Made by a program: the position numbers and the translations under genes. From assembly GCA_944376795.1 (NCBI GenBank), contig CALWDW010000054.1, forward strand, positions 1-64,000: a stretch of DNA of 64,000 nucleotides. Reading direction: 5' to 3'. The notes under the pieces were generated by a model that did not search any database, had not been told where the DNA came from, and saw nothing but the letters and a program-made list of their open reading frames with translations. The DNA comes from an uncultured Christensenellaceae bacterium. Its GTDB lineage: Bacteria; Bacillota; Clostridia; Christensenellales; UMGS416. Position 1 is the stretch's first letter, and the number at the start of each line of letters is the position of its first letter. Of this stretch, positions 1 through 38,570 are shown piece by piece.

Positions 1-474
1 ATGAGTGACACGGACGATTCCTTTAATTTTTTAATCTCCATGTGTTACACCCAGCTATTCAACCTGCTCTGTGAAAAGGCCGACGATGTGTACGGCGGGC
101 GGCTGCCGGTCCATGTGCGCTGCCTCATCGACGAGTGCGCCAACATCGGCCAGATCCCCAAGCTGGACAAGCTGGTGGCTACCATCCGCCGCCGGGAGCT
201 TTCCGCCTGCCTGGCCTTGCAGGCACAGAGCCAGCTCAAGGCCATCTACAAGGACAACGCCGACACCATCATCGGAAATATGGATTCCTCCATTTTCCTA
301 GGCGGCAAGGAGCCAACCACGCTCAAGGAGCTGGAGGCCGTGCTGGGCAAGGAAACCATTGACACCTACAACACCGGAGAGAGCCGTGGGCGGGAAACTT
401 CCCACTCGTTCAACTATCAAAAATTGGGGAAAGAGTTCCTGCCTGTGTTGGAGAAGAGCAAGTGTTTGGTGTGA
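1..474 (+). pseudogene. VirD4/TraG-type conjugation coupling ATPase, 3' fragment, truncated
   Basis: This is the C-terminal half of a type IV secretion coupling protein, the membrane ATPase that brings relaxase-bound DNA to the mating channel. The visible part contains the conserved LIDECANIGQIP block (Walker B region), then IRRRELSACLALQAQSQLK and NADTIIGNMDSSIFLGGKE, typical of the Tn1549/CTn family. The 5' end is outside the window. In this family the block ending YQKLGKE is followed by about 60-90 more residues (LM-type motif, DGGKCILQLRG region). Here, after GKE near base 432, the reading frame passes into 14 unrelated residues and stops. The gene is therefore broken at its 3' end and the protein is probably non-functional. 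Its GC content is high, unlike the AT-rich cassette that follows. Family assignment is firm; the exact junction is an estimate. Confidence 0.88.
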
Positions 475-3232: not shown

Positions 3233-3233
3233 G

Positions 3234-5552
3234 TCAGATGTCCTCCTCAAATAGTTTCAGAACATCAGCAGAAGTTTTGTTTCTCAGTGTAACTGTCTTA
3301 AGATCATTGGTATAAGTAGTATTGATAAACTCTGGATAGCGTGCAGAAAGGCCCAAAAGAATCGACTTCATTTCTTCTTCGTCATATAACCCAAATAAGC
3401 GAACAGGACTGACACCATCACGTTCTATACTTTCATCAAATAGATAGGAAACATTAAATTCCTTATCCATGTTACACTTTTCTATGAACTGGTACAAAGA
3501 ATAAAGGATCACCCTATTATCATCTACTGTACATTTCTGCCTGCATAGAGTAGTAATTTGTTTGCCCTTAGTCTCAACATAGCCCCAGTTTAAAATTGTT
3601 CCAAGAGGCAGCTCACAGAATCGTTTAAATGCATTGATTATTGAAGTTGCGTCGTCTCTTTTAACTCCTTCAAGCATCAGCAAATCACAGATGTGATCGC
3701 GTTCATAATAGACACCACAATCCATGTTTTGAATATACCACCGGCATTGACGATTATAGGCAAGATTGGATAGCATTAGGCCCCATGCAGTATTATCTGA
3801 CCAACCTAAGCGAGAAACGATTCGGAAGAGCTGTGTCGTTTTCCCTGTTTTGGGGTCAAGTAATCCGCATTCCCGAAGAAAACGCTTAAACATAGGAACC
3901 TGATTCTTTCCGAGACCGTTTTCACTCTCCCAATAATCGTCACCAACATCAAAAAACTCTTGTACCCAATTAGGTTTTGGTGCATGGTTTGCAAACGAGT
4001 TAATACTTTCTTTTTTCATAATTCCATCTCCACTTGTTCCTCTGACGGAATGAAACAAAAGACATCCATCAGTAATGTCGTGGCATTGTCCACAATGTAA
4101 GCAGTCAGTAATTGAAAGGCCTCCATCAAATGAAATACAGCCGTTCCGGCAGTTTGTTTCACATACTCTACATCCTACGCAATGAGATGCCTTACGAAAC
4201 ACCTGCTTAAATTTTTTGAATTCGTTGGGATAGGTTTTAGCGACCAAGGCACTGCAGGTTATTCTATAGCCATTTGGTAATGCTTCATATTCATACTCAA
4301 ATGGTACATTTCCAAGTGTCTTTATCCATTCTCGCCAATCTGTTTTTGGAGCAGTAACAGTAATAATATATTTGCCATTCGTAATTTCCTCATAGCAACG
4401 ATCACTTGCTATTGTAAGGTCTCGCCCATTTTTACGGGCATTCCATCCGCCATTAGAAACATAACTATTCAGTCCTTTTTGGTCGCCTGCGTTTCTTGCA
4501 TTCATCTCTTTTATCAGCGAAATATATGAGTCGACTTCCTCGGTATAAGCAGATCGCTGGAAGAAGTCTCCTCTGCCACCACCCATTGGGCAGAACAGAC
4601 AACCAGCTCGAGAATTTCCCTTTTTATAAGTTTCGTTAATCGGGACGTCATTCATATAAATGTAAAGCCATATCTCAGCAGATGTCCATTCCAAGATCGG
4701 ATTGTAGCTATACTGCCCTTTCTGTTTTTTGCCAAAATTTTCATAATCATACCTACTCCGTGTAGCACTTTCGTGGGCTCGCACACCAACAAAATCCATA
4801 CCGATGTAATCGACTTTCTTGGTTATTTCACGCATTTTGAGCGTTTGCGGCGTGCTTTTATGGACACTACAGCACCAACGTAGTACACGAGCTGGCGGAC
4901 CAAATAGTCGCCAGGAATCCTCCGGCTTAAAACAAGAATGTGAAATATAGAACGGTGTGCCGTCCTCTTCACACTGCTTCTTTGTCAGTTCCACTACTTT
5001 GTAGGTATCAGGGAATTCCATTCCGGTATCACCGAAGATTACCACAAAACTTCCGTTGGGGAGTGCCTTCTTTACTAAGTCCAAAAGTACAGCACTGTCT
5101 TTACCACCGGAGAAGGCCACATGAAAAATATCCAGTTTGTGCTTGAACTTTTCATATTCTTTTACAATCTTTTTAACTGTTGTATCCTCGATTATCGCCA
5201 TGAGGTCTTTGTTCAATTCACACATTGCGGAAATATCGATTGGCTGCAGCTCTTCACCTTTGCTTCTTGAAAAGGGGATACTTCCATCTTCCTCATAAGC
5301 CGGCTGAAGTTCGGGAGCGTTATAAAGATTACCACCTTTGGTTTTTGCAATTTGAATACCACGATACCAATAAGCATTGGATTCAGCCCACATATAAGGT
5401 ACATCACACTGTTTATCATATTCCCAATATCTGAAAAAACCAAGCAGATCCATTTCAGGAGCATAGACGGGCCTGGGTTCTTTTGAAAAATTTGATGGGG
5501 TGGAATTTAGGACAATTCCTCCACTGACGGAATCATAAGTATATAAGTACAA
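3234..5552 (-). CDS. PAPS-reductase/ATP-pyrophosphatase fused to 2[4Fe-4S] ferredoxin and DUF4007-like domain
   Basis: A 772-aa multidomain protein. Residues 140-320 form a PP-loop nucleotide-binding domain with SGGKDS at 148-153 and a CC pair at 227-228, plus CLFCPMGGGRGDFF at 318-331, a layout shared with DndC-like and PAPS-reductase-like sulfur-transfer enzymes. Residues 458-497 carry two ferredoxin-type Cys clusters (CxxCxxCxxxC and CxxCxxC). Residues 510-772 contain GLGKNQV and an NTAWGLMLSNL...W pattern that resembles DUF4007. Dnd-type enzymes use such a domain to activate phosphate for sulfur insertion into the DNA backbone; a similar role here is inference. The start is TTG at 5552, placed 9 bases after AGGAAGG and 5 bases after the upstream stop. 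No cysteine desulfurase is present in the cassette, so sulfur would have to come from a host IscS-type enzyme. Confidence 0.8.
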   Translation of the reverse strand: MYLYTYDSVSGGIVLNSTPSNFSKEPRPVYAPEMDLLGFFRYWEYDKQCDVPYMWAESNAYWYRGIQIAKTKGGNLYNAPELQPAYEEDGSIPFSRSKGEELQPIDISAMCELNKDLMAIIEDTTVKKIVKEYEKFKHKLDIFHVAFSGGKDSAVLLDLVKKALPNGSFVVIFGDTGMEFPDTYKVVELTKKQCEEDGTPFYISHSCFKPEDSWRLFGPPARVLRWCCSVHKSTPQTLKMREITKKVDYIGMDFVGVRAHESATRSRYDYENFGKKQKGQYSYNPILEWTSAEIWLYIYMNDVPINETYKKGNSRAGCLFCPMGGGRGDFFQRSAYTEEVDSYISLIKEMNARNAGDQKGLNSYVSNGGWNARKNGRDLTIASDRCYEEITNGKYIITVTAPKTDWREWIKTLGNVPFEYEYEALPNGYRITCSALVAKTYPNEFKKFKQVFRKASHCVGCRVCETNCRNGCISFDGGLSITDCLHCGQCHDITDGCLLFHSVRGTSGDGIMKKESINSFANHAPKPNWVQEFFDVGDDYWESENGLGKNQVPMFKRFLRECGLLDPKTGKTTQLFRIVSRLGWSDNTAWGLMLSNLAYNRQCRWYIQNMDCGVYYERDHICDLLMLEGVKRDDATSIINAFKRFCELPLGTILNWGYVETKGKQITTLCRQKCTVDDNRVILYSLYQFIEKCNMDKEFNVSYLFDESIERDGVSPVRLFGLYDEEEMKSILLGLSARYPEFINTTYTNDLKTVTLRNKTSADVLKLFEEDI

Positions 5553-5557
5553 TGGAA

Positions 5558-8026
5558 TTAGCCTTCCTCTCTTAGTGTAATTGCTTTCTCGATTATTTCA
5601 GGGAGACTTGAAAACTTCCTTTTTGCAGTGAATCCGTTCTCAAAGAAGTATTGTCCAACCGCCTCCGTAGTTAATGGCACATTTGCTTTTGCAGCCGTTT
5701 CGCAAAGCATGTCTGTATAACTAAAGTCCGTAGAATTGGTAGCTATAATACCTACATTTTTATCATTGTAATTTAAAACGCATAATTTATATTTTTTGCT
5801 AAACCGATAACAGAAGCTTTCCAATAAATAGTGATTCCAGCTATGGCCACAGGGTGGAAATAAGGCAAATGTCGTGATACTTTTGATTGCTGCAAATCGA
5901 TTTCCGATAATACCATGTAGTACGCAATCAATTCGGTCAACATCAAATTGTATCTGCGAATCAGAAACGAAATATTCTTTATCCACACGGATCATTGTAT
6001 CATATAATGCTACAAATGAATTTTGGCGATTCGGGGCTCCGACCAGTTCTATGGCTTTATTTATTATATCTGTCAGGGAGCATGAAATCTTTTCCTGGCA
6101 ATAATTTTTCAAAAGTAAAACTATATCAATATTACTGCCATCACAAGTGAGGATTTTCCCATTTAATTTATATTGCTGTTTTAATACGGCAATATAAACC
6201 GCAGAATAGAGCCCTGTAATTGAAAGTTCATAATTTTGCTCCGGAATACTACCAAATGGTAAATCAGTTATGGATGCATATCCCTTTCTGTGGCATTCAC
6301 TTGCAACATAATCTCGAATAGCTGTTTCTTCTTCATCGTTAATTATAAAGTGGTTCATCACAAAGTACTTGCCTTCACTTATCCAAACGAAATCATCGCT
6401 TACTGACAAGCTCCAAGCAATTTTATTGGAAGGCACATAGGGAAGCTGTTCACAAAGATCAGTACTCCAGATAATATTTTTGCCTTCACTAACCCGGTGA
6501 ATTTCTGAAACAACAGCTTCAAATTCTGTTTCCTTTTTTCCAGTCGTAATGATATTCTGCCCACAATAGAGATCAGGGCGTCTTTTTTTAATAACTTCTT
6601 TTACTATTTCTGCTGATAGAATATGGTGTTCCTCCAACCATTCCGAATTTCTATCCACAAACGGTTCCATGAATACGACGGTGGCTCCACTGTCAAAAAC
6701 ACTATTTATAAGTTCTTCAAATTTTGATAGAGTATCTTCACTAAAGACGAAAATTTTTCCATCAACTAAAATTCCTGCTGCAGTAATTTCTTTGCTCAGT
6801 TCCTCATCAGAGTTAGGAAGTAAAACTGCACTATCCTCAGCATAGTTTCGAAAACGCATCATTTCAATTGGCGAAGCTATCCGGAAACCATAAGAATAAT
6901 GTTCCTTTAAAATCTGTGTTACTTGCTTAGTAAACTGCGGTATCCATGTTAAGGTTGAGTGGCTGGTAGTAGCGGAAATTGGAGCCTGGTTTCGCTTATG
7001 GTAGAAAATTGCAAGGGAATCATATGGAATGTTATACAGATCCAAAAGTGCCCTGATCTTTTTTATAATGTCAGTGGCGCTGAGGTTCGTTTCAATAACT
7101 AAACCGCTTTCAATTACATGTGGAGCTGTCATCTGATATAATTGATCTGCCTTTAGAAAATCTACGCGCCTTCCTCCACTGATATTTTTACCAACCAGAG
7201 ACTCAAGCAATTCTGGATTTCTGAGACACAACTCATTCACAACACCCACATAAAGTTTTGTCCAGTTTTTAATGGGTATAGCTTCGGAACCCGTAAATTG
7301 AAAGTAATCGGGTCTTGTATAAGAAAATCCTACCGGATTAACAAAATCCACTCTCAGCTCCACTATTTCTGAATTCTGAGACGTGTTACTGAGAGTTGGC
7401 CTATCAGTAATTTCACGAGCTTCCAGATATTTTAAAAAAGTTTTAATTGCATAAATGTATTCATGAAGTTGTTTTCTCGAATGAATATGCGGTGTTTGAT
7501 TCTTGTATAAAGTGCTTAACACTTGCTTAACTTTTTCTGCCGAATTTATTTTTATAATGGGTTCATTGATAGTACCGAACTTAAGATAAAGCGCGCTGAC
7601 TAAATTAAGCGAGTTAATAATTAGCTGCGCAGATACTATGTATTCGCTCTGCTCCTCCAGCCAGGAGGCAAATGTTCTTTCCTTTTTGTTTTCGAAATCC
7701 AATTCCATAGCCTCCCGTACCAATGTATCAAATGCCTTTTTGTCCGACTCGTATAGTTCAACAGTATCACGAAAGATTTTTGAAATCGTAAGCCCTCCTG
7801 ATTTATGATGAAGGCAGTTCGTCATAGCTGAGAGTTGCATAGAAATTCCGTTTTCATTTCTGAAAATATTATCTATCTCCAAGCCTCTATGTATAGCCCG
7901 ATTCCTCAAAATATTAGATACTAATGTAATAGCAGATGAACAATCAAATACTCCTTGATCAACACGCAAGCATGTATCAAGTAATATGGCTGCCTCATAC
8001 TTATCCCATGGAATTCTATACGCCAT
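5558..8026 (-). CDS. Large protein of unknown function in the sulfur-related cassette
   Basis: I do not recognise a named domain in this 822-aa AT-rich protein. The start chosen is ATG at 8026 (MAYRIPWDKYEAAILLD), preceded by GGAAAGG. A longer version from TTG at 8101 would overlap the regulator gene by 14 bases and has no good ribosome-binding site. The opening YRIPWDKYEAAILLD segment recalls hypothetical proteins seen near mobile DNA in gut Firmicutes. A middle region near residues 460-490 (VFMEPFVDRNSEWLEEHHI) looks like part of a Rossmann-like or nuclease-like fold, but no catalytic motif is clear. It is the first structural gene of the operon and is tightly linked to the PP-loop gene, so it is likely the specificity, DNA-binding or effector subunit. 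That role is inference. Confidence 0.7.
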   Translation of the reverse strand: MAYRIPWDKYEAAILLDTCLRVDQGVFDCSSAITLVSNILRNRAIHRGLEIDNIFRNENGISMQLSAMTNCLHHKSGGLTISKIFRDTVELYESDKKAFDTLVREAMELDFENKKERTFASWLEEQSEYIVSAQLIINSLNLVSALYLKFGTINEPIIKINSAEKVKQVLSTLYKNQTPHIHSRKQLHEYIYAIKTFLKYLEAREITDRPTLSNTSQNSEIVELRVDFVNPVGFSYTRPDYFQFTGSEAIPIKNWTKLYVGVVNELCLRNPELLESLVGKNISGGRRVDFLKADQLYQMTAPHVIESGLVIETNLSATDIIKKIRALLDLYNIPYDSLAIFYHKRNQAPISATTSHSTLTWIPQFTKQVTQILKEHYSYGFRIASPIEMMRFRNYAEDSAVLLPNSDEELSKEITAAGILVDGKIFVFSEDTLSKFEELINSVFDSGATVVFMEPFVDRNSEWLEEHHILSAEIVKEVIKKRRPDLYCGQNIITTGKKETEFEAVVSEIHRVSEGKNIIWSTDLCEQLPYVPSNKIAWSLSVSDDFVWISEGKYFVMNHFIINDEEETAIRDYVASECHRKGYASITDLPFGSIPEQNYELSITGLYSAVYIAVLKQQYKLNGKILTCDGSNIDIVLLLKNYCQEKISCSLTDIINKAIELVGAPNRQNSFVALYDTMIRVDKEYFVSDSQIQFDVDRIDCVLHGIIGNRFAAIKSITTFALFPPCGHSWNHYLLESFCYRFSKKYKLCVLNYNDKNVGIIATNSTDFSYTDMLCETAAKANVPLTTEAVGQYFFENGFTAKRKFSSLPEIIEKAITLREEG

Positions 8027-8087
8027 AGTTGGGTACCTTTCCAAAGCAATATCTGTTACTCGGATTAAACTGCCGTATCTACAATTC

Positions 8088-8294
8088 TTATTTATCTTCA
8101 ACTATTTCCATGATATCTTCAATTTTACAGTCCAACGCTGTACAAATCTTCAGGAGGATTTCTGTAGTAATATGACCATTCCTACCCATTTTAGTGACGG
8201 ATGCCGCACTAATACCTGCCTTTGCACACAGATCCTTCTTCTTCATATCCTTATCAATGAGTAGTTTCCAGAGTTTTTTATAACTGACAGCCAT
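8088..8294 (-). CDS. XRE-family helix-turn-helix regulator of the cassette
   Basis: A 68-aa Cro/CI-type single-domain regulator. The HTH is recognisable as LCAKAGISAASVTKMGRNGHITTEILLKICTALDC, a pattern typical of short XRE proteins in mobile elements, with the recognition helix around SAASVTKM. The start at 8294 follows GGAGGAG. It is the promoter-proximal gene, and its end overlaps or abuts the large downstream gene, so it is transcribed with the cassette and probably autoregulates it. A promoter and a terminator-like hairpin lie in its leader (separate entries). The assignment is secure; its target operator is not resolved. Confidence 0.9.
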   Translation of the reverse strand: MAVSYKKLWKLLIDKDMKKKDLCAKAGISAASVTKMGRNGHITTEILLKICTALDCKIEDIMEIVEDK

Positions 8295-24745: not shown

Positions 24746-25834
24746 TCAAGCCGTGTGCGTTCGGTTGGATTCCTGGGAGGCAAACTGCAGGGTGCTGCCC
24801 ACCCTTTTGCAGTGCAGTACCGGCGACAGAAGCAGCGCCGGAATGTAGCAGCGCCCTTCGTGCAGGATGGCATGGACGCCGTCTACCCGCAGGTTGACAG
24901 AACCTCCCCGGCCGCGGAAGTTGATGAACTCGCCCTTGCGTTCGCAAACATTTTCGGTAAGCAGGGCCATCAGGTCGGCCCACAGACAGGGCTGCCCCTG
25001 CGCCGCCGTCAGCATCGGAGGGGCCTCACACACCATGCGGACGTCGTCGGCCTGCAGCACCGAGCCGCCGGGGAAGCTTAGGACGCTGTAGGGCAGGCTG
25101 CCCAGATAGCGCGCCGCCATCTCACAGGCCTGGAGGGAGTAGGTGGAGGTATCCCAGGAATACTCCTGTGCCCGGACATCCCAGGGAATCAGCGGCTGAA
25201 AATGAGGAAGCAGGAAGAGCCCAGCATACCGGGTGCAGTCCACGTGGTACCAGTTCCCCTCCACCTTGACCAGGTTCCAGGCATGGCTGGGATCCTTGGG
25301 CAAGGCGTTCCGGCGGCGGCCAGAGATGTACAGGGCAGGAATCCCTGCGGCCCGGAACATGTACTGGGCCACCAGGGCGATGCTCTGACAGACCCCGTAG
25401 CCGCCGAAGAACCCTACAAAGGGATTGTGGTCGCTGAGATGGCCGGTATTCCGGTAGTTGATGCGCCGGGACAGCCAGCGGACGATGGCCTTCAGACGGC
25501 GGTCTTCACTCATCCCCGGTTCTATGACTCGCGTCACTTGCCGGTGTACCTCGTCCAGCAGCAGCATGCGCTGGGCCGGCGACATCATGAACTCCCGATG
25601 GAGGTGGATTTGCGTGTGGCTGCGGCCGTCGCTGAGGAACTGGGTTACCTCCCGAAGCACTTCGCCCCGGCAGGGATCCAGGAAGGCCCGGTAGTCTGCC
25701 AGCAGTTTCTTGACTTGCGAGAGGGAGCCGGCCTCTCCCGATGCGGCGATTTCGATGTCTTTGGCCATAAGCAGTTCCTGAAGCCGCACAGCTAGAAGCA
25801 GACCGTTGGAACTGTGTACCTGCATATGAAGCAT
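24746..25834 (-). CDS. Transglutaminase-like cysteine protease domain protein in the E1/E2 cassette
   Basis: A 362-aa protein with a transglutaminase-like core: Cys149 in GGYGVCQSIALVAQY, His184 in DPSHAWNLVKVEGNWYHVD and Asp199. This is a complete triad in a fold usually used by bacteria as a peptidase. The N-terminal 100 residues are helical and unassigned, and the C-terminal roughly 80 residues have beta character. There is no signal peptide, so it acts in the cytoplasm. It follows the JAB-E1 gene by 31 bases. A peptidase next to an E1/E2-like pair could mature or remove a conjugated protein tag; that is inference. Confidence 0.8.
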   Translation of the reverse strand: MLHMQVHSSNGLLLAVRLQELLMAKDIEIAASGEAGSLSQVKKLLADYRAFLDPCRGEVLREVTQFLSDGRSHTQIHLHREFMMSPAQRMLLLDEVHRQVTRVIEPGMSEDRRLKAIVRWLSRRINYRNTGHLSDHNPFVGFFGGYGVCQSIALVAQYMFRAAGIPALYISGRRRNALPKDPSHAWNLVKVEGNWYHVDCTRYAGLFLLPHFQPLIPWDVRAQEYSWDTSTYSLQACEMAARYLGSLPYSVLSFPGGSVLQADDVRMVCEAPPMLTAAQGQPCLWADLMALLTENVCERKGEFINFRGRGGSVNLRVDGVHAILHEGRCYIPALLLSPVLHCKRVGSTLQFASQESNRTHTA

Positions 25835-25865
25835 GGTCCTCTACCTCTCTGTCTCGCTTTTTAGG

Positions 25866-27989
25866 CTACTGGCCGCAGGGCGCGGAGGACTCTGCGATTG
25901 CCTGCTGCAGCATGGCCTCTGCTTCGGCCTGGATAGCGTCTACCGCGGCCTCCGCCTCCGTGCCGGCCAGCGTCTCCTGCTGCATGGCCGCCATCATGTC
26001 CTCGTAGGTCTCAAAGGTGCGATCGCCCAGGCTGTAAACCTCCGGCACGCCCTGGGTCTGGGGCGCAACGCGCTCCTGACAGTAGTCACAGTCACAGGGC
26101 GCCATGGAGAGCCCTCGGGCCGCCTGCAGCGGATGGGTGAAGAGCTTGGCGGCGTCTTCCCCAGCCACCTGTTCCAGGTGTGAGTTGGCAAAGAGCAGCA
26201 GCTGGCCGGTGTAGGGCAGCAGGCGCGGGGTGTAGGAGGCGTTCTCCAGATTCAGCAGATCCAGCACCACCTTGACACCAATGGAGGTGCCCAGGGTGAT
26301 ATCCACGTCGATGCCAGGCTCAAAGTGGACCTTGGCCTCGTCCGCCTGATCCAGATAGAAACGGTTGCGCTCCACGGCGGCGGCCTCCACCGCCTCGCGG
26401 AAGGCGCAGCGGTAGCGGGTCATCTTCCGGCCGGGCAGCCAGCGGAAGCACTCCAGCACCCCCGCCCGGCTCCAGAAGCCAATGGAGACAAAGGGACGCT
26501 GGAAATCATAGGCCAGATCATTGGCAAAAGCATTGCCCAGGCGATTGTCCCCGCAGCCCAGGAAGACCGCCGGACGGTCCTCGATGCAGTCCACCAGCAG
26601 GCTCTGGGGAAGATTCTGGATGATGCCCGGGAAAACCGTCACCGAGGCGGTGGGGTTGATCCGCAGGATTCGCTCCCGCAGCGCCTCCACCTTGTAGCGG
26701 CCCAGGGACTCCAGCCCCAGCTGGTGGCGGCAGATATTGTGGATTTCCAGCACGTCGGGGTCGCAGAGCAGGAACCGCCCCACCCCGTTCCGGGCCAGCT
26801 GCAGCGCCGCCACCGATCCCACACTGCCGCAGCCCGTCAGCACCACGGTGGTGTTCAGATTCCAATCGGTCTCCATGAGGCCGCTCTGGCGGCTGAAGAG
26901 ATTCTGCACCAGGCTGTAGGGCTCAGCCGTCAGTGGAATAGGCGCGGCCTCGCCGTCCAGGTAGAAGAAGGACAGGCCTTCCTCATCCTGGAGGGCGCGG
27001 ATGCCCCGGTCTACCGGCCCGAACCCGCCGATAACCGACGCACCCAGCGCCGGGTCGGGTTCGGCGCCCGTCCAGCCCAGGATGGCGTGCGCCCCGGTCT
27101 CTGGACGCAGATAGCCGTAAAAGCTGCCCCGGAACCCGTCCTGCAGGATATGATCCAGCAGGGCCTGGGGAATGGATATGGTATTCTTGGGCTGCGGACG
27201 TTCGCCGCCGGATGGGGAGACGGCGGCCGCTTCGGTCGGAGACTTTTCGGCGGGGGTCTCCTCGGCGGGAGCCGCTTCCTCACGGGACGCTGCCCCGGGG
27301 GACTGGAAATGGCCGGGGAAGAGACGGCGGGGCAGCTTCCCAGCCAAGAGCTCCTTATCCCAGGGACGCAGGCCGATCCAGGGCCGCTTGGGCTGGGCCC
27401 GGGCAAAGAGCTCCTCCGGTTCGGCTAAGGCCAGGATCTCTTCGGGGAAGGCATCGTCCCCCACGGTGTAGGGGACCCGGGTAAGCACCCGGTCCTTGCC
27501 CGCGTAGTAGAAGGTCATCCGCAAAGAGGGGTCCATATTGACCAGCATGGTCAGGATGCCGCAGCGGGAGTCCTGCACGTGATCGTCAATGGTATCCAAG
27601 TCGGTGCCGCTGAAGGTATCCATGGACCCGGGATGACGGTGGTAGAAGCCCAGGATTCCCGGGGGATAGCGGTAGATCCGCTTCAGCGCGCCGGCAAGGT
27701 GGTTGGCGTAGGGAATGTCGTACTGGAAGTAGGAACGGCTGTTGATGGTATCCTTGATGCCGGGATCCACCACATCCACCAGGTACCAGATCCCTTGATG
27801 GAAATGGCCCAGGAAGACGCCGCCCGTCTCGTTGTCCCCATGGCTGAAGACCTCGGCCAGAATGGCCCGGTAGGCTCGGTCGGAGACCGCCACGGCCCGG
27901 CATACGTCACGCGGGGTGTCGTCATAGCGGTAGGAAGGGAAGGTTGCCGCCGGCCGGGCGGGGAATTCCCAGAAAATCTGCTTTTTCAT
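25866..27989 (-). CDS. JAB (JAMM) metalloprotease fused to E1-like ThiF adenylyltransferase
   Basis: A 707-aa fusion. Residues 40-165 form a JAB domain with a full JAMM motif: Glu54 in ETGGVFLGH, then His117-x-His119-x7-Ser127-x2-Asp130. An Ala/Glu/Pro-rich linker covers about 230-268. Residues 375-600 are the ThiF/E1 domain with the nucleotide loop GCGSVG (386-391), DPDVLEIHNICRHQ (410-423) and GCGDNR (478-483). A CxCxxC cluster at 632-637 probably binds zinc, and the tail is acidic and helical. E1 domains adenylate the C-terminus of a ubiquitin-like protein and JAB domains cleave such conjugates, so both activities sit in one polypeptide. The start at 27989 follows GAAAGGAG. It is placed between the E2-like and transglutaminase genes. 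Confidence 0.9.
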   Translation of the reverse strand: MKKQIFWEFPARPAATFPSYRYDDTPRDVCRAVAVSDRAYRAILAEVFSHGDNETGGVFLGHFHQGIWYLVDVVDPGIKDTINSRSYFQYDIPYANHLAGALKRIYRYPPGILGFYHRHPGSMDTFSGTDLDTIDDHVQDSRCGILTMLVNMDPSLRMTFYYAGKDRVLTRVPYTVGDDAFPEEILALAEPEELFARAQPKRPWIGLRPWDKELLAGKLPRRLFPGHFQSPGAASREEAAPAEETPAEKSPTEAAAVSPSGGERPQPKNTISIPQALLDHILQDGFRGSFYGYLRPETGAHAILGWTGAEPDPALGASVIGGFGPVDRGIRALQDEEGLSFFYLDGEAAPIPLTAEPYSLVQNLFSRQSGLMETDWNLNTTVVLTGCGSVGSVAALQLARNGVGRFLLCDPDVLEIHNICRHQLGLESLGRYKVEALRERILRINPTASVTVFPGIIQNLPQSLLVDCIEDRPAVFLGCGDNRLGNAFANDLAYDFQRPFVSIGFWSRAGVLECFRWLPGRKMTRYRCAFREAVEAAAVERNRFYLDQADEAKVHFEPGIDVDITLGTSIGVKVVLDLLNLENASYTPRLLPYTGQLLLFANSHLEQVAGEDAAKLFTHPLQAARGLSMAPCDCDYCQERVAPQTQGVPEVYSLGDRTFETYEDMMAAMQQETLAGTEAEAAVDAIQAEAEAMLQQAIAESSAPCGQ

Positions 27990-28049
27990 GGTAAGGCTCC
28001 TTTCAAGGCGAAGATTCGCTGCGGACGGCGGCAGCATGGGGCGGGGAAA

Positions 28050-28922
28050 TTAGTGGCGGCAGAAGGCTTGCCAGCACGTATCGTAGAGCAGACCCATCTC
28101 GTAGTAGTAGGCCCACTTGATGGTCCAAGCCGCCGCGGTGACTGCGCTGGTCACCAGGTTTACCCCGGTGTCTACGTCCGAAGTGCGGGCCGTGCACAGG
28201 TGGATGTTATTGTTTTCATCCCGGAGCAGGTGGGGAACGCTCTCCCGGCCGGCTTGACGGGCACGGCGCTGCAGTTCCTGGATGGTGGGACTGGCCAGAT
28301 AGCAGCGGATGGAACCACCGTAGTTCTTGTTATTGGGGTGGTCGGCGTCATAGACCAGCATGGCATTGTAGGGGCGGAAGGTATTGCCGATGCGAATGCG
28401 GAAGGGGAGATGCCAGTAGACCCGCCCGTCCTTCAGGGTGCCCAACTGGGCCTGGGGGAAGTGCTGATGCATGAGAGCCTGCTCTTGATCAAAGAGCTCG
28501 CGGTCTTTCTGGTACCACTGGCGGGCGGCGAAGGAGGCCTTCTTGGTGGAGGTGATGGTGGCGTCGCCGCCCAGAGAGCTCTCGGAGCCAGGACGGACGA
28601 TGGTACCGTCGGGAGCGAACTGCATGGAGTCGCCGTTCTCAATGGAGCGGCGGAGGTCGGCCAGTTGGTCAGAGACGGAGTCGGCGGCGAAGGAGGCCTT
28701 CTTGGTGGAGGTGATGGTGGCGTCGCCGTCCAAAGAGCTCTCGGAGCCGGGACGGACGATGGTACCGTCGGGAGCGAACTCCATGGAGTCGCCTCTTTCG
28801 ATGGAGCGGCGGAGATCGGCCAGCTGGTCGGAGACGGAGTCGGCGGCGAAGCGGCCGGCGGTCAGACGGGTGATGGTTTCGGCTTCCATAGCCGGACGGT
28901 TGGCCCAAGAATCATACTTCAT
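28050..28922 (-). CDS. E2-like (UBC fold) protein with 53-residue N-terminal tandem duplication
   Basis: A 290-aa protein. Residues 25-77 and 78-130 are a nearly identical 53-residue repeat containing SVSDQLADLRRSIE and APDGTIVRPGSESSL. Residues 140-290 look like a bacterial E2/UBC fold: VYWHLPFRI, YNAMLVYDADHPNN, then HLLRDENNNIHLC, which fits the E2 HxN...C active-site pattern with Cys243 as the candidate thioester residue. The start at 28922 follows AGGAGGTA. It has its own promoter at 28980-29008 and is followed at 60 bases by the JAB-E1 gene. No separate ubiquitin-like protein is visible, so the repeats or the membrane protein sharing DGTIVR are candidate partners. The E2 call is moderate. 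Confidence 0.62.
   Translation of the reverse strand: MKYDSWANRPAMEAETITRLTAGRFAADSVSDQLADLRRSIERGDSMEFAPDGTIVRPGSESSLDGDATITSTKKASFAADSVSDQLADLRRSIENGDSMQFAPDGTIVRPGSESSLGGDATITSTKKASFAARQWYQKDRELFDQEQALMHQHFPQAQLGTLKDGRVYWHLPFRIRIGNTFRPYNAMLVYDADHPNNKNYGGSIRCYLASPTIQELQRRARQAGRESVPHLLRDENNNIHLCTARTSDVDTGVNLVTSAVTAAAWTIKWAYYYEMGLLYDTCWQAFCRH
28533..28850 (-). repeat. Two tandem copies of a 159-bp in-frame repeat in the E2-like gene
   Basis: Copies at 28692-28850 and 28533-28691 encode 53 residues each and differ at a handful of bases (for example Arg/Asn, Glu/Gln and Asp/Gly changes). Such similarity at the DNA level indicates a recent duplication or ongoing gene conversion. Confidence 0.9.
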
Positions 28923-28979
28923 AATCGTACCTCCTATGTACTTCCTGCCATCCATGCCTGGATGGGAGGGAATGTCTGT

Positions 28980-29008
28980 AGTATAAACGGCTGGTATCTG
29001 GCGAACAA
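28980..29008 (-). promoter_or_regulatory. Internal promoter ahead of the E2-like gene
   Basis: On the minus strand TTGTTC and TATACT are separated by 17 bases, 58 bases upstream of ATG 28922, in the only sizeable gap of the cassette. Confidence 0.6.
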
Positions 29009-29089
29009 AGGCAAACCCCCTTGAAAACCAGGTAAGCCGTCCCGGGAAACGGGTAAGTGAAAACCATCCCGCAGAGCGGCAATGCGTCG

Positions 29090-30559
29090 TTATGTGCCGT
29101 CGCGAGAGGACCGGGCCAGGAGCGTTCCGGCACTGCTGCGCAGGACAAGACCCTCGGCAGAGAGGCTGCCATCCAGTGGGTGGACACCCCCTGTGCCAAG
29201 AATGCTCTCTCGCGAGACAGGATCCAGCAGAGAAAGGCGTTCCTGCGGGCTAAGCAGGATACAAAGATAGACGCCGCAGCGCCGCCCGTGGACCAGCAGC
29301 CGCTGCAAACGGTGCGTCTGCTCCTTCGTAAGTCCGGAGGGAAGGCCGTGCAGGATCAGCAGCCGGCAGGGCGCCTTGCGCAGCACAGACAGAGGCTGGG
29401 TCAAAACGGTGTCTTCCGGATGGGTGAAGGTATTTTGACGGACCAGCAGCGCCTGAAAAGCCTGCTCCAGCAGCGTGACGCTTTGCTCCTCCTGCTGGCA
29501 TATTTGCAGGGAAGAGGAGGGTACCCCTTCCAAGTCCCGCAGAAACACATAATCCTGCCCCAAATCGAGAGAGTCCAATACCGTGACCGTCAGCGTGCCG
29601 GCGGGAAAAATGCGCAGCGCGCCCAGAGCGATTTCCGCAAGCCATGTGCCTGCGGCGTGGCGGAAGGCCGCGTTCTCCATGGGACCTGCTACCATGACGG
29701 ACATGCCTGAACGAGGCGAGATCCAGACCGAGCCCCGAAGCTGGCGGCCGTCCCAGTGCAGGCTGTTTTTCCACAGCTCCTGGAAGAGCAGGCCGGCCTC
29801 CGGACGGCAGGGAAGAGAAACCGTGCCAATGGGAATCCGGCCCGAAACCACGGCGTCGGCCATGGGAGGATCGGATGTGTCCACCAGGCCGCCGGAACCG
29901 GCCAGTGGGGCCAGCTTCTGCCGCAGCCCCTGCTGCAGCCCGGCATACTGCGCAGCCAGCTCTCTTCGGAGGGTTTCCTCCTGGTGGGAGCGCCACGCCT
30001 TCCAGAGAGCCAGTTTTTTGGCGCTGGCAGACGCAATATCCTGATTGGCGGCGGCGCACTGGCTCTCCACCCGGCGGCAGGTCTCTTGCACCCGCGACCG
30101 GCAGGCGTCCACACTGGCTGCAATCTGGCCAAAGGCGTGGCCGTGAAGAAAGATTCCATGACGCCCCAGCGCCGCATCCAGCTTCCGGGGGATGACGCCG
30201 TTGCGGACCGTATTGGCCAGGCGGTGGCAGGCTTCCAGGGACAGGGGACGAGGGGATGAGGGACGATGCCCGCGGCGCAGATAATAGGGATAGCCGGTGG
30301 GCTCCATGCGGCGCTCCAATGCGCGAAAGTTGGCCCACTCCTGCCGGACTCTTGTCAGGGATGCTTCGGCTTCCTTCCTGCGCTGGTCAAGGAGGGTCTG
30401 CGCCGCCTGAAGCTCCTGCCTCCTGTACCCTTCGTCTTCGTGCGCCACCCGGGCCAGGGCCCGGACGGTTTGATCGGTCACCGCGTTCCAATCGTTTTCA
30501 AACTGGTTTAGGGACTCCGCCAGGTACCGCCAAAGGGTAAAACTGCTCCATGCCTCCAT
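29090..30559 (-). CDS. Coiled-coil protein with degenerate FtsK/SpoIIIE-like C-terminal domain
   Basis: A 489-aa protein. Roughly residues 15-80 and 145-215 are Arg/Glu/Ala-rich coiled coil. The C-terminal half reads GSVWISPRSGMSVMVAGPMENAAFRH where FtsK-like ATPases have Walker A, but the GxxGxGKS residues are missing. Near residue 400-440, CRLLILHGLPSGLTKEQTHRL and RRCGVYLCIL resemble the Walker B and sensor region of FtsK relatives. It is therefore probably a non-catalytic structural or tethering relative. The start ATG 30559 follows GAGAGGAGG. It lies 14 bases after the membrane-protein gene, and its position in the E1/E2 cassette suggests a scaffold that links the membrane protein to the conjugation enzymes. 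The role is inferred. Confidence 0.6.
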   Translation of the reverse strand: MEAWSSFTLWRYLAESLNQFENDWNAVTDQTVRALARVAHEDEGYRRQELQAAQTLLDQRRKEAEASLTRVRQEWANFRALERRMEPTGYPYYLRRGHRPSSPRPLSLEACHRLANTVRNGVIPRKLDAALGRHGIFLHGHAFGQIAASVDACRSRVQETCRRVESQCAAANQDIASASAKKLALWKAWRSHQEETLRRELAAQYAGLQQGLRQKLAPLAGSGGLVDTSDPPMADAVVSGRIPIGTVSLPCRPEAGLLFQELWKNSLHWDGRQLRGSVWISPRSGMSVMVAGPMENAAFRHAAGTWLAEIALGALRIFPAGTLTVTVLDSLDLGQDYVFLRDLEGVPSSSLQICQQEEQSVTLLEQAFQALLVRQNTFTHPEDTVLTQPLSVLRKAPCRLLILHGLPSGLTKEQTHRLQRLLVHGRRCGVYLCILLSPQERLSLLDPVSRESILGTGGVHPLDGSLSAEGLVLRSSAGTLLARSSRDGT

Positions 30560-30573
30560 GGGGAACCTCCTCT

Positions 30574-31077
30574 CTAACGGGAAAGCAGCCAAAGAACGAT
30601 GATGGCAATGATAATGCCCAGAATCCATCGCACCAGCGTCGTGAAAATGGACAGGATCAGCAGCAGGAGCCAGCACAGCCCTAAGCCAATGGCCAGCCAC
30701 AGCAGCGTGCGCCCCCATGAGGCAAACAGCGCCCTGCAGCCGTAATTCCGGCGGCGGGCATGCCGACGGTTATACACGAGGGTGCCCAGCATGCCGGTCA
30801 GCCCGATGATCCACGGCCCCGCCAGATAGAGCATGCGCCGGATGGTATAGGCGTCTGCCTCAACATCGGGCGGCCCAATGAGAATGGAAAAACCATAGAC
30901 TGCCATATAGTGGCATAGCAGCGCTGCAAAGACCATAGAAGTGAGCCAATACAGGAAAATGCGGCTGCCAGCAGGATGATCCACATAGACTGCATGATGA
31001 TTCGGAGTCTGGGGAATGGTCCGTGCGCCGGCAACCCGGCCGCTGCGGACAATGGTACCATCGGATAATGCACGCAT
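30574..31077 (-). CDS. Small polytopic membrane protein with N-terminal DGTIVRSG motif
   Basis: A 167-aa protein. The soluble N-terminus starts MRALSDGTIVRSGRVAG and three to four membrane helices follow (about 40-62, 80-100, 118-140 and 145-166). The DGTIVRSG motif matches DGTIVRPG in both repeats of the E2-like protein two genes downstream, the clearest direct link between members of the cassette. The start at 31077 follows AAAGGAGG. It is the first gene of the operon, with a probable promoter at 31116-31144. I do not recognise a family; it may anchor the complex at the membrane or be the modified target. Confidence 0.72.
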   Translation of the reverse strand: MRALSDGTIVRSGRVAGARTIPQTPNHHAVYVDHPAGSRIFLYWLTSMVFAALLCHYMAVYGFSILIGPPDVEADAYTIRRMLYLAGPWIIGLTGMLGTLVYNRRHARRRNYGCRALFASWGRTLLWLAIGLGLCWLLLLILSIFTTLVRWILGIIIAIIVLWLLSR

Positions 31078-35327: not shown

Positions 35328-36392
35328 GTGAACTGTATCAATGTCAAGGATTTCGGCGCCTTGGGCAATGGGGTGGCCGATGACACCGCGGCCATCCAGG
35401 CGGCGTTGGACGCCGCGCGGCAGGGAAGCGCCGTGTATATTCCTGCCGGACGGTACCGGGTGCGCCCGCTGCGGATCCCCAGCCACATCACGGTGATGGG
35501 AAACGCTTCCTGGGGCTATTCCGCCTGGGGGTATGGCAACAACCGCATCGAGACCGGAGAACCCGTGGACCTGGACTATAATGGCAATACCGTGCTGGTT
35601 CCCATGCCTACCCGGGCCCCTGCCATGGTGGATATGACAGGCTGCTGCGGAACCAAGCTGGTAGGGCTGACCTTCGACGGCCTGATGTGGGGGCAGGATT
35701 TCCACTGCGTCGTGGCGCCCAGCGCCGGAGGTCCGCAGAATATCGCCTTTGAGGATGTGCGGATCAGCCACTTCACAGGCTGCGGACTGAATCTCCGAGG
35801 AACCCAGGGATTCTCTATCCGGCGCAGCCTGATTATCAAGAATGTGAGCCATGCCGTGGACGCTTCCGGCGCCCGGAACGGCAGCGTGATGGACAACCAG
35901 CTGGCATATGGCGATGGCGCGGGATTCTATGGCGCGGGCCCCGGGACGGGAAGCTTTACCATTGTGGCCAACCGCATCGAAGGAGGGAACCCCGGCGGCG
36001 TGTACCTGGAAGATGCCGATACCGTCAGCGTTGCGGGAAACTCCTTTGACTTCAACGCTGGCCCGGGGGTTACCCTCCTGGGATGCACTGCCTGCACGGT
36101 GACCGGCAACATGACCCGCGGCGCCGGTCACGACCACGACGATGACTGCAACGCCCACCTACGTTTGGAGAACTGCCGCGGCGTTGCCTGCATGGGCAAT
36201 ACCTCCTGGAGCTGGCCGTCCCATATGGGCATCCAGCGGCTTACCTGGTACGGCATCGTGCTGCGAGGCCTGACCGACTGCGTGGTGTCGGGCAACAGCC
36301 TCTTCGACTGCGCCAGCAAGGAGATCGTCCGGGACCATGGCGGCCATACCAATACCCTGATTGGTGACAACCAAGGCAAGGTGTGCCAGTAG
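35328..36392 (+). CDS. Parallel beta-helix protein, pectate-lyase-3/GH28-like, tandem copy 1
   Basis: A 354-aa protein. It starts VKDFGALGNGVADDTAAIQAAL, the hallmark of the pectate_lyase_3 (rhamnogalacturonase/GH28-like) N-terminus, then VPSHIT-like strands and repeated turn motifs (NRIEGGNPGGVYLEDAD, VAGNSFDFNAGPGVTLLGC, VTGNMTRGAG). There is no signal peptide, so it is likely cytoplasmic. The GTG start at 35328 follows AAAGGAGAG. It is the first of five similar genes in one direction. No catalytic Asp pair as in true GH28 is evident, so it may be a lyase or a binding or epimerase-type helix; substrate probably a pectic oligosaccharide. Confidence 0.8.
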   Translation: MNCINVKDFGALGNGVADDTAAIQAALDAARQGSAVYIPAGRYRVRPLRIPSHITVMGNASWGYSAWGYGNNRIETGEPVDLDYNGNTVLVPMPTRAPAMVDMTGCCGTKLVGLTFDGLMWGQDFHCVVAPSAGGPQNIAFEDVRISHFTGCGLNLRGTQGFSIRRSLIIKNVSHAVDASGARNGSVMDNQLAYGDGAGFYGAGPGTGSFTIVANRIEGGNPGGVYLEDADTVSVAGNSFDFNAGPGVTLLGCTACTVTGNMTRGAGHDHDDDCNAHLRLENCRGVACMGNTSWSWPSHMGIQRLTWYGIVLRGLTDCVVSGNSLFDCASKEIVRDHGGHTNTLIGDNQGKVCQ

Positions 36393-36415
36393 GGATACGC
36401 CGGAGGGAGCGTCTT

Positions 36416-37513
36416 ATGCCTTATGTAAACCTACGGGACTTTGGCGCCCTGGGCGATGGGGCGGCCGATGACACAAAAGCCTTTTGCAGTGCGCTGCGGG
36501 CCGCCGCCCAGGGAGATGGTACCCTCTACGTGCCGGCCGGCACATATCGGATCCAGCCGGTACGGATTCCCAGCTCGGTTACCATACTGGGGCACGCCTC
36601 CTGGGGCTACTCTGCCTGGGGCTATGAGAACAACAAGGTCAAAGAGGAACGGCCAACCGATCCCCAGATCAACGGCCACACCGTCTTTGTTCCCGCCTCT
36701 GCCCAGGGCGAGGCACTGTGGGACCTGGGAGAGGCTTCCCACGTCCGAATCGCCGGAATCTCTCTGGACGGACAGATGCTGGGAAACGGTTTTCACGGGA
36801 TCCTGGCCCGGGGAGGACAAAAAGCGCAGGACCTAACCCTGGAAGACGCGCGGATCTGCCACTTCACGGGAAACGGACTGACCCTGGACCGGGTGCAGGG
36901 CTTTGCCCTTCGCCGCAGCCTGATTATCCGCAACCTCGGCCATGCGATGGAGGTGTCCGGCTCCCGTCAGGGCAGCGTCATCGACAACCAGCTCTCCTAT
37001 AACGACGGCGCGGGCTTCTGGGGACTGGGGCAGGGGACCGGCGACTTTACCATCACCGCCAACCGCATCGAAGGCGGCGGCCCGGGCGGCATCTACCTGG
37101 AGGATGCTGATAACATCACAGTATATGGTAATTCCTTCGATTCCTGTTGTGGGCCGTCGGTGACCTTCCTGCGGTGCCGCATCGGTTCAATCACCGGAAA
37201 CCTGTCCCGGCTGTCGGGACGGGTCTCCCAGGGCGACGCCAACGCTCACTTCCGCATGGAGGACAGCCAGGGGATTGTCTGCGCTGCCAATTCCCTGTGG
37301 GGCTGGCCGGCGCTGGTGGGCCATGACGCCATGCCGTGGTACGGCATGGTGCTGCGCAGCCTCACCGGTTCGGTTATTGCCAAGAACTCCATGCATGACG
37401 CAGGAAACCGCCGGTGTATCCTGGACTACGGAGGCCACCGCCATTGCCTCGTAGCCGACAACCAAGGACGGCCCCATGCGCCGGAAGAGGAGGAAACCCA
37501 TGCTGATGCTTAA
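36416..37513 (+). CDS. Parallel beta-helix protein, tandem copy 2
   Basis: A 365-aa paralogue starting VNLRDFGALGDGAADDTKAF. It shares with copy 1 the IPSSVTILGHASWGYSAWGYENN block, the HFTGNGL...GFALRRSLIIRN segment, NRIEGGGPGGIYLEDADNITVYGNSFD and a DYGGHRHCLVADNQG end. No signal peptide. ATG 36416 follows CGGAGGGAG, 24 bases after copy 1, and its end overlaps the start of copy 3, indicating translational coupling. It has the same uncertain catalytic role as copy 1. Confidence 0.8.
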   Translation: MPYVNLRDFGALGDGAADDTKAFCSALRAAAQGDGTLYVPAGTYRIQPVRIPSSVTILGHASWGYSAWGYENNKVKEERPTDPQINGHTVFVPASAQGEALWDLGEASHVRIAGISLDGQMLGNGFHGILARGGQKAQDLTLEDARICHFTGNGLTLDRVQGFALRRSLIIRNLGHAMEVSGSRQGSVIDNQLSYNDGAGFWGLGQGTGDFTITANRIEGGGPGGIYLEDADNITVYGNSFDSCCGPSVTFLRCRIGSITGNLSRLSGRVSQGDANAHFRMEDSQGIVCAANSLWGWPALVGHDAMPWYGMVLRSLTGSVIAKNSMHDAGNRRCILDYGGHRHCLVADNQGRPHAPEEEETHADA

Positions 37514-38570
37514 TGTTCGCGATTTCGGCGCCCGCGGGGACGGCTGCGCCGACGATACTCCGGCGGTACTGGCCGCGCTGCAGGCCGCCTCCCCTGGGGG
37601 GACGGTGTTCTTCCCCAAGGGCCGGTATGGAATCCGGCCCATCCGGGTACCCAGCCATGTCACCCTCCTGGGCCAATCCTCCTGGGGCTATGTGGATCGC
37701 CGGAACGCCCAGAGAGAGGAAGCCGATCCCGGCGCGCTGGGGAATGCCGTACTGTTTGCCCTGGACGCCGGCGCTCCGGCCCTCCTGCAGCTGGAAGACG
37801 CCCGGGGAACCCGGATCCAAGGGCTGTCCTTTGACGGATGCAGGCTGGGGGATTCCTTTGGCTGCATGGCCGCCGGCCCGGCACGGGGCCCGCAGAATTT
37901 GGCTTTCGAAGACCTGCGGGCCGATCACTTTACCGGCAATGCCCTGACGCTGCGCCAGGTGGAAGGCTTTGCCGTGCGGCGCTGCCTCTTCATCCAAAAC
38001 GGCGGGCATGCCATGGATGTCAGCGGTTCCCGGAACGGCACGGTGATCGACACCCAGCTGTCCTACAACAAAGGCGCAGGATTCTACGGCATAGGCGGCG
38101 GAATGGAGCGGTTTATCATCCTCAGCAACCGCATCGAGGGCGGACATCCCGGCGGCGTGTATTTGCAGGGCGCTTCGGGGGTTATGGTGAATGGGAACTC
38201 CTTTGACACCGCCATGGGCCCCGCCGTCAGTTTCCTGGAGTGCACCGGCTGCACCGCCGCCGGCAATATGGCCCGGCTCTCCGGTCACGATCAGGAGGGG
38301 ATCCTGGATACCCACGTCCTGCTCCGGAACTGTGCCGGCATCAGCATTACCGGCAATGCCTTCTGGGGCTGGCCCAGCCTGGGTACCAATCCCTGGGTCG
38401 CCAGCTACGGCGTCTATGGGGAGAATTTGACCGACTGCATCATTACCCAGAATACCATGCTGGAGAGCTGCCGGACCGCGCTCATCCAGCTGGAGGGAAA
38501 TATCTCTCGCGTCATAACAGAAAATAACGCAGGGGCCGTCTATCCCTGGACGCCGCCCTGTAGTCCATAG
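37500..38570 (+). CDS. Parallel beta-helix protein, tandem copy 3
   Basis: A 356-aa paralogue. The start ATG 37500 (MLMLNVRDFGARGDGCADDTPAV) follows GAGGAGGAAACCC and lies inside the end of copy 2 by 14 bases. The core keeps VPSHVTLLGQSSWGY, HFTGNALTLRQVEGFAVRRCLFIQNGGHAMDVSG and NRIEGGHPGGVYLQGA, but its C-terminal end (ITENNAGAVYPWTPP) differs from the DGGHxNTLxxxNQG ending of the others. It is the most diverged of the first three and may have shifted specificity. Confidence 0.8.
   Translation: MLMLNVRDFGARGDGCADDTPAVLAALQAASPGGTVFFPKGRYGIRPIRVPSHVTLLGQSSWGYVDRRNAQREEADPGALGNAVLFALDAGAPALLQLEDARGTRIQGLSFDGCRLGDSFGCMAAGPARGPQNLAFEDLRADHFTGNALTLRQVEGFAVRRCLFIQNGGHAMDVSGSRNGTVIDTQLSYNKGAGFYGIGGGMERFIILSNRIEGGHPGGVYLQGASGVMVNGNSFDTAMGPAVSFLECTGCTAAGNMARLSGHDQEGILDTHVLLRNCAGISITGNAFWGWPSLGTNPWVASYGVYGENLTDCIITQNTMLESCRTALIQLEGNISRVITENNAGAVYPWTPPCSP

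Follow-up and report, generated by a model that had tools for sequence, protein, structure and literature searches.

Prokaryotic operons that combine E1, E2 and JAB genes have been classified as types 6a-6e, of which 6e is the polyubiquitin-like (polyUbl) type (Iyer et al. 2006, PMC1779556). In the cyclic oligonucleotide-based antiphage signaling system (CBASS), Cap2 conjugates a protein via its C-terminal Gly or Ala, and the JAB protein Cap3 cleaves a tandem fusion directly behind this residue (PMC10097602). The Bub systems (e.g. BubA, BubB and BubCD of Citrobacter), defined here from PDB titles and PMC13373217, have JAB and E1 in one protein, BubCD. We analyzed a 64,000-nucleotide stretch (the window; contig CALWDW010000054.1, positions 1 to 64,000) of the 2.68 Mb draft genome of an uncultured Christensenellaceae bacterium. 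Positions 24746-31077 of the window hold a cassette of five minus-strand genes, A to E, which is flanked by genes for a nitroreductase and an AI-2E transporter and has about the GC content of its surroundings. On balance, we consider it probable that the cassette encodes a reversible ubiquitin-like conjugation system with its own tiny modifier. To a more specific proposal we give an even chance: that it belongs to a new E1/E2/JAB family with a modifier of about 53 residues and non-beta-grasp structure, made as a tailed precursor or, in the manner of polyubiquitin, in tandem and fused with its own E2.

A first-pass annotation, made from the sequence alone, had placed five open reading frames (ORFs) here, and all of them were found. 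The features are as follows.

30574..31077, minus strand: gene A, a small membrane protein of 167 residues with about three hydrophobic segments (hydropathy scan)
29090..30559, minus strand: gene B, 489 residues from the start MEAWSS, with a coiled coil and a degenerate ATPase domain
28050..28922, minus strand: gene C, a polyprotein-like ORF of 290 residues with a leader, two candidate modifier units and an E2
28845..28922, minus strand: leader of C, 26 residues, with TAGRFA at its end, similar to the ends of the units
28686..28844, minus strand: candidate modifier unit 1, 53 residues, ADSVSDQ...TKKASFA (profile of the relatives' units)
28527..28685, minus strand: candidate modifier unit 2, 53 residues, of which 50 are those of unit 1; DNA identity 93%
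28050..28526, minus strand: E2 domain of C with a ubiquitin-conjugating (UBC) fold, predicted catalytic Cys243 and conserved Pro230-His231 upstream (PADLOC E2, conservation, AlphaFold2 (AF2) model)
25866..27989, minus strand: gene D, a JAB-E1 fusion of 707 residues from the start MKKQ (ORF, family matches)
27393..27896, minus strand: JAB/JAMM metallopeptidase domain of D (Prok-JAB), JAMM residues conserved among relatives
26916..27182, minus strand: N-terminal domain of the E1 part of D, beta-rich and unclassified, AF2 predicted local distance difference test (pLDDT) score about 90
26073..26870, minus strand: E1 adenylation domain of D (ThiF 1.1e-20, conservation, structural match to UBA5)
24746..25834, minus strand: gene E, a transglutaminase-like (papain-superfold) protease with the triad C149/H184/D199 (Transglut_core 1.4e-15)

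Gene C starts with MKYD at the ATG at 28922, 7 nucleotides downstream of a GGAGG Shine-Dalgarno sequence (28930-28934). Its first 132 residues consist of the leader and the two near-identical units, directly before the E2 domain, and each unit ends in Ala. Judged by its sequence, the 53-residue unit is likely the modifier, present here in two tandem copies. Polyubiquitin and ubiquitin fusions have the same layout, and homogenized tandem repeats are known from polyubiquitin. The first-pass annotation had reported no visible ubiquitin-like protein, in the sense that no modifier was encoded; this has to be revised, as the two units stand at the start of C and most relatives have a gene of their own for such a unit. 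In a stricter sense, none of the ubiquitin-like families of Pfam, PADLOC and NCBIfam matched anything in the cassette.

The relatives were collected by scanning 84,980 species genomes with an E1 alignment, which returned 52 loci (designated by L numbers). In most of them, the small unit is a separate gene directly upstream of the E2 gene, usually of 54-78 residues. The sequence runs from a charged helix with xRRxLAExL through a VxVxPxGxV hairpin and a variable linker to an IxVPxGKLA end. Each of the 33 standalone copies that were examined has GKLA or GVLA; 21 stop there and 12 add 1-4 variable residues (KED, GED, RGE, TTEV and similar), as ubiquitin precursors do. When the unit ends were aligned as P-x-G-K-L-A, in a set chosen by its last residues, P, G, L and A were each found in 38 of 38 sequences. 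Many of the small proteins also have a short leader with a similar end motif, such as ISVPVGRFA. The unit is fused ahead of E2 in nine loci, the window included, and five of these (L066, L068, L070, L072 and the window) have tandem units with DNA identities of 87-97.5%. In the fused genes, the last residue of each leader and unit is Ala, or Ser in parts of L069, and the next unit or the E2 begins immediately after it. Modifier units with long C-terminal extensions were noted in two loci: in L065 (1847-2260), a Cys-rich, zinc-finger-like stretch follows GKLA, and L059 (4099-4797) has a second multi-unit gene next to the fused gene.

Homology of the window's units was tested with profiles free of E2 sequences and with shuffled sequences. 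The profile of standalone copies matched L068 with 22.0 bits and L070 with 18.9 bits, the best of 2000 shuffles reaching 11.6 and 11.0, respectively. A unit profile from L068 and L070, with the window left out, scored 60.6 bits (8e-17) on the window's pair of units, against at most 10.2 bits for 2000 shuffles. A search with the unit alignment, which included a shifted row of the window itself, placed unit 1 exactly at 28686..28844 (1.4e-11). The unit profile matched this locus only in 20 of 21 whole genomes, and the remaining one (G1164) had two extra fragments at chance level. No credible relative of the unit was found in the PDB, and its AF2 model is a helix plus a hairpin at low confidence. 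PkwA came up as a PDB relative of the unit profile and was set aside, as no stretch was significant alone. The Lys of GKLA was considered as an acceptor site and rejected because L068, L070, L072 and the window have lost it, unlike the final Ala.

The enzymes of the cassette carry the residues expected of a conjugation pathway. The E2-like product of gene C was predicted beforehand to use Cys243, counted from the MKYD start; this residue is present and invariant in 51 of 51 sequences. PADLOC E2 matched C at 3e-7, the AF2 model has pLDDT values mostly above 90 over the E2 part, and its structural matches in VIA were CBASS CdnG-E2 (Z 10.4), UFC1 (9.2) and the Tsg101 UEV domain (8.7); the Foldseek E-values were weak (best, 0.06). 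As modeled, the E2 domain adopts a UBC fold, as had been foreseen, and its Cys is invariant. In D, the JAMM residues Glu54, His117, His119, Ser127 and Asp130 are all present when counted from the MKKQ start, and each is kept in 51 of 51 relatives. The Prok-JAB match itself (1.9e-5, 24.9 bits) lies just under the 25-bit cut-off, and the ThiF match in Pfam is 1.1e-20. The E1 residues, in the numbering of the longest ORF, are GCGSVGS, D426/D428, N434/R437-H438, K449 and D497, and include a Cap2-type N..RH motif. Across the 53 E1s and 52 JABs aligned, the nucleotide-site, NxxRH and JAMM residues are essentially invariant, and this conservation places the catalytic residues beyond chance.

The AF2 model of D (mean pLDDT 77) matched UBA5 with a VIA Z score of 23.8 (root-mean-square deviation (rmsd) 2.6 over 231 residues), and MoeB and ThiF with Z 22. 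Its top Foldseek match across both domains was BubCD (1.7e-14), with a large rmsd that presumably reflects a different placement of the domains. D thus combines a complete JAMM site with an adenylation domain resembling those of Cap2 and UBA5, and the expected ATP- and metal-binding residues of the fusion are intact and conserved across relatives. The idea that the N-terminal domain of the E1 part is an inactive JAB was dropped, since hhalign found no relation to JAB. The E1 tree pairs two long branches, the window and L072, a pairing that is unsure.

The loci come mainly from gut Bacillota (Lachnospiraceae, Oscillospiraceae, Christensenellaceae and others) and Coriobacteriia; a few lie in spirochaete and planctomycete bins, whose assignment may be wrong. 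A scan of close relatives with D alone gave no match, and searches of whole genomes gave two relatives in the window's order and a third in its class. The system is rare: among 396 genomes of the order, 3 carry it, one of them Christensenellaceae bacterium Phil1 (G265), and within 398 genomes of the phylum only the window's own does. The relatives of the order and class have JAB and E1 as separate genes, and a protein of 57-65 residues and an E2 between a B-box membrane protein and JAB. Recombinase- or integrase-like genes flank 11 of the 52 loci. Neither the window's E1 part nor a relative's E2 matched any plasmid, and E2 matched no phage; two records are viral contigs, one (L077) with serine recombinases and a small unit-E2 pair and the other (L019) with a weak E1 match.

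The small protein, E2, JAB and E1 occur together in 50 of the 52 loci. In a set of 56 loci that includes three duplicates, FtsK was found in 48, a WXG100-like protein in 43 and a B-box membrane protein in 34. The constant core is therefore modifier, E2, JAB and E1, and FtsK is a usual companion, mostly full length with its motor. It had been asked whether the five genes of the window travel together; as a set they do not, and what does travel is this core. Beyond it, FtsK is usual, clear transglutaminase homologues stand downstream of E1 in L068, L069 and L072 only, and the membrane gene A lacks a detectable homologue.

Gene B had been called an FtsK-like scaffold. The relationship to FtsK stood, as residues 589-762 of the family FtsK profile matched residues 269-441 of B (1e-11); the match lies upstream of Walker A, which is absent from B. 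By sequence, B represents the front portion of the coiled-coil FtsK/SpoIIIE-like ATPase of this family and lacks the motor domain. GxxxxGK(S/T) is present in all FtsK proteins of the set except B, its 541-residue counterpart in L068 and the contig-end-cut L022. L068 has transmembrane proteins, short FtsK, units-E2, JAB, E1 and transglutaminase in the window's order, and the recurrence of the motorless form there, in the same gene order, marks it as a variant and not one isolated decayed copy, so that the view of B as simply a broken FtsK is weakened. A simple hydropathy scan found no membrane segments in 39 of the 48 family FtsK proteins.

The protease triad Cys149/His184/Asp199 announced for gene E is present. 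In loci other than the three with a transglutaminase, FtsK is followed by a WXG100 protein whose C-terminus is of the papain type, and these C-termini matched Gln_amidase (1.8e-12), a toxin family, and C39 peptidase (1.7e-6). Transglutaminase-like and papain-type domains both belong to the papain-like superfold, and E may therefore be the counterpart of these WXG100-linked proteins. WXG100-like proteins with papain-fold C-termini after FtsK, likely effectors, are seen for instance in L032 (15909-16976) and L039 (13405-14727).

Gene A had no family match in Pfam, PADLOC or NCBIfam. Its start (31077, minus strand), MRALSDGTIVRSG, resembles PDGTIVRPG of the modifier unit. Such short DGxI-type starts are frequent in the membrane proteins of these loci (gene A, L066 10883-13133, L069 1993, L051 17281) and are possibly a shared binding element. 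The B-box membrane protein of L061 (7489-8295) starts with ISVPEGALA followed by ADAAE, the motif seen at the ends of leaders and units.

We propose the following course of events. The JAB half of D would cut after the terminal Ala of the leader and of each unit, which would set free the E2 and two modifiers. Using ATP, the E1 half would then adenylate the terminal Ala of the unit and hand it to Cys243 of E2. Transfer may run straight from the adenylate to E2, a possibility raised by the lack of a conserved Cys in the E1 crossover loop; some E1-like enzymes manage without a thioester Cys. E2 would join the modifier to a target, from which JAB could take it off again. A and B probably form a membrane-proximal platform, with B as a motorless FtsK-type scaffold, and E, in place of the relatives' WXG100-linked papain-fold proteins, is likely an effector or a regulated partner.

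Several points weigh against this reading. The window's units end in TKKASFA instead of PxGKLA and retain the last Ala alone; with 3.4 bits, they are too diverged for the profile of standalone copies to detect and are tied to the family via L070 and L068. The fused units might never be released. The crossover loops of the 53 E1s share no conserved Cys, and of the two Cys pairs of the family E1s one is halved in the window, whose E1 lacks two Cys that are near-universal in relatives (positions 440 and 541). Among the neighbors, gene A has no detectable homologue in relatives, counterparts of E are few, and the sequence of B does not demonstrate the role predicted for it without a motor. Conjugation itself is a prediction from sequence and models.

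The units could be flexible docking or pseudo-substrate tethers of E2, with the true modifier, a beta-grasp protein or the C-terminus of an effector, encoded elsewhere. We consider this unlikely, although it is the strongest competitor: in CBASS the signaling enzyme itself is conjugated, the window and eight relatives do have the unit fused to E2, AF2 gives the units a helix and a hairpin at low confidence, and segments resembling the unit occur at the N-terminus of A (SDGTIVRSG) and in the B-box protein of one locus (VPEGALA). However, the unit is a separate small protein in most loci, ending at conserved residues and sometimes bearing a variable tail; a tether needs neither. The last Ala is retained even where the remaining end is lost, and no other recurrent small candidate was seen among neighboring ORFs of at least 80 residues (smaller ORFs were not clustered).

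The association with FtsK (48 of 56 loci) and WXG100-like proteins (43 of 56), including those with papain-fold C-termini after FtsK, would also suit a module that regulates an unusual secretion system similar to type VII. The conjugation enzymes would tag WXG100 effectors, or license them, for an FtsK ATPase that is soluble, and the window would be a degenerate remnant. This we regard as improbable, because the family FtsK proteins are mostly devoid of membrane segments and L068 shares both the motorless form and the gene order with the window, which is hence a variant; a secretion role is moreover unlikely for the window's variant, whose genome gave no WXG100 match and has a single other FtsK, a housekeeping one. 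Least probable of all, in our judgment, is a pathway for ribosomally synthesized and post-translationally modified peptides (RiPPs), with the unit as precursor peptide, the E1 as a ThiF/MccB-type adenylating enzyme and a modified secreted peptide as the product. The E1 profile and model do resemble MccB and PaaA, enzymes that act on peptides, and the unit has a leader-like N-terminus and protease genes nearby. Nearly every locus, however, has an E2 with an invariant Cys and a JAMM isopeptidase, which are not RiPP enzymes; the E1 has the Cap2-type NxxRH, and no recurrent dedicated transporter was found among neighboring ORFs of at least 80 residues.

The best reading thus remains a bacterial E1/E2/JAB conjugation system with an unusual modifier, which we do not assign to Bub, CBASS or type VII secretion. 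With type II CBASS the cassette shares the N..RH E1, the closest E2 fold, JAB and an acceptable C-terminal Ala; by analogy, CBASS would be a near-exact precedent for the proposed chemistry of cleavage and conjugation. In contrast to CBASS, Cap2 being an E2-E1 fusion, the cassette joins E2 to the units and E1 to JAB, has no CD-NTase or CBASS effector among its five genes (Pfam, PADLOC and NCBIfam), and would conjugate a peptide of about 53 residues; the first-pass annotation had rightly noted that the partners differ. BubCD is a JAB-E1 protein like D, whereas the relatives have JAB and E1 as separate ORFs; BubA in the solved complex (residues 155-229) is larger than the 53-residue unit, and the cassette family differs in its WXG100/FtsK/B-box or transglutaminase neighbors. 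E1, E2 and JAB are common to the types of Iyer et al., and tandem modifier repeats occur in 6e, but those are ubiquitin-like domains, whereas the units described here are short, have a different predicted shape and are joined to E2. Most relatives resemble type VII secretion systems in having WXG100 proteins and an FtsK/SpoIIIE ATPase, although the family ATPase is mostly soluble with a coiled coil and the window has neither a WXG100 in its genome nor Walker A in B. Pup/PafA requires a PafA-type ligase and a Pup end of GGE/GGQ, whereas the cassette has E1 and E2 and a unit ending in Ala. No ISG15-like beta-grasp BilA as in BilABCD was seen in the cassette by family searches, the Bil sequences not having been compared directly. 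We found no description of such loci in the literature searched, including a survey of type VII secretion variants c-j whose text mentions neither ThiF nor JAB (PMC11217815); an earlier mention in Gong 2025 (Bub) or Burroughs et al. 2011 is possible.

Elsewhere in the window, the left edge (410-8101, minus strand) holds genes of the bacteriophage exclusion (BREX) defense system, BrxC (PADLOC, 1162 bits) and BrxP (1e-232), about 16 kb from the cassette, beside an 847-residue protein with no Pfam or PADLOC match. Three tandem paralogous right-handed beta-helix/pectate-lyase-like proteins are encoded at 35328-38570 (plus strand), where a long opposite-strand ORF looks spurious. At 62067-63320 (plus strand) lies a phage terminase large subunit (Terminase_3, 3e-33), and a prophage may start near the right edge.

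The most likely biological setting of the cassette is an accessory conflict or stress function, given its rarity, patchy spread, recombinase-like flanks and toxin-like papain-fold neighbors. The family brings a polyubiquitin layout to bacteria, with near-identical tandem copies, removable tails and C-terminal fusions, and connects WXG100/FtsK loci with conjugation enzymes in gut isolates, Faecalibacterium, Olsenella and Collinsella among them, in which tests are possible. If the proposal is true, it would provide a very small and genetically compact tag for study and engineering. Conjugation of the ubiquitin type normally depends on the beta-grasp fold; if a pathway kept E1, E2 and JAB but worked with a tiny peptide whose C-terminal motif is conserved, this would mean that the enzymes, and not the fold of the modifier, define it.

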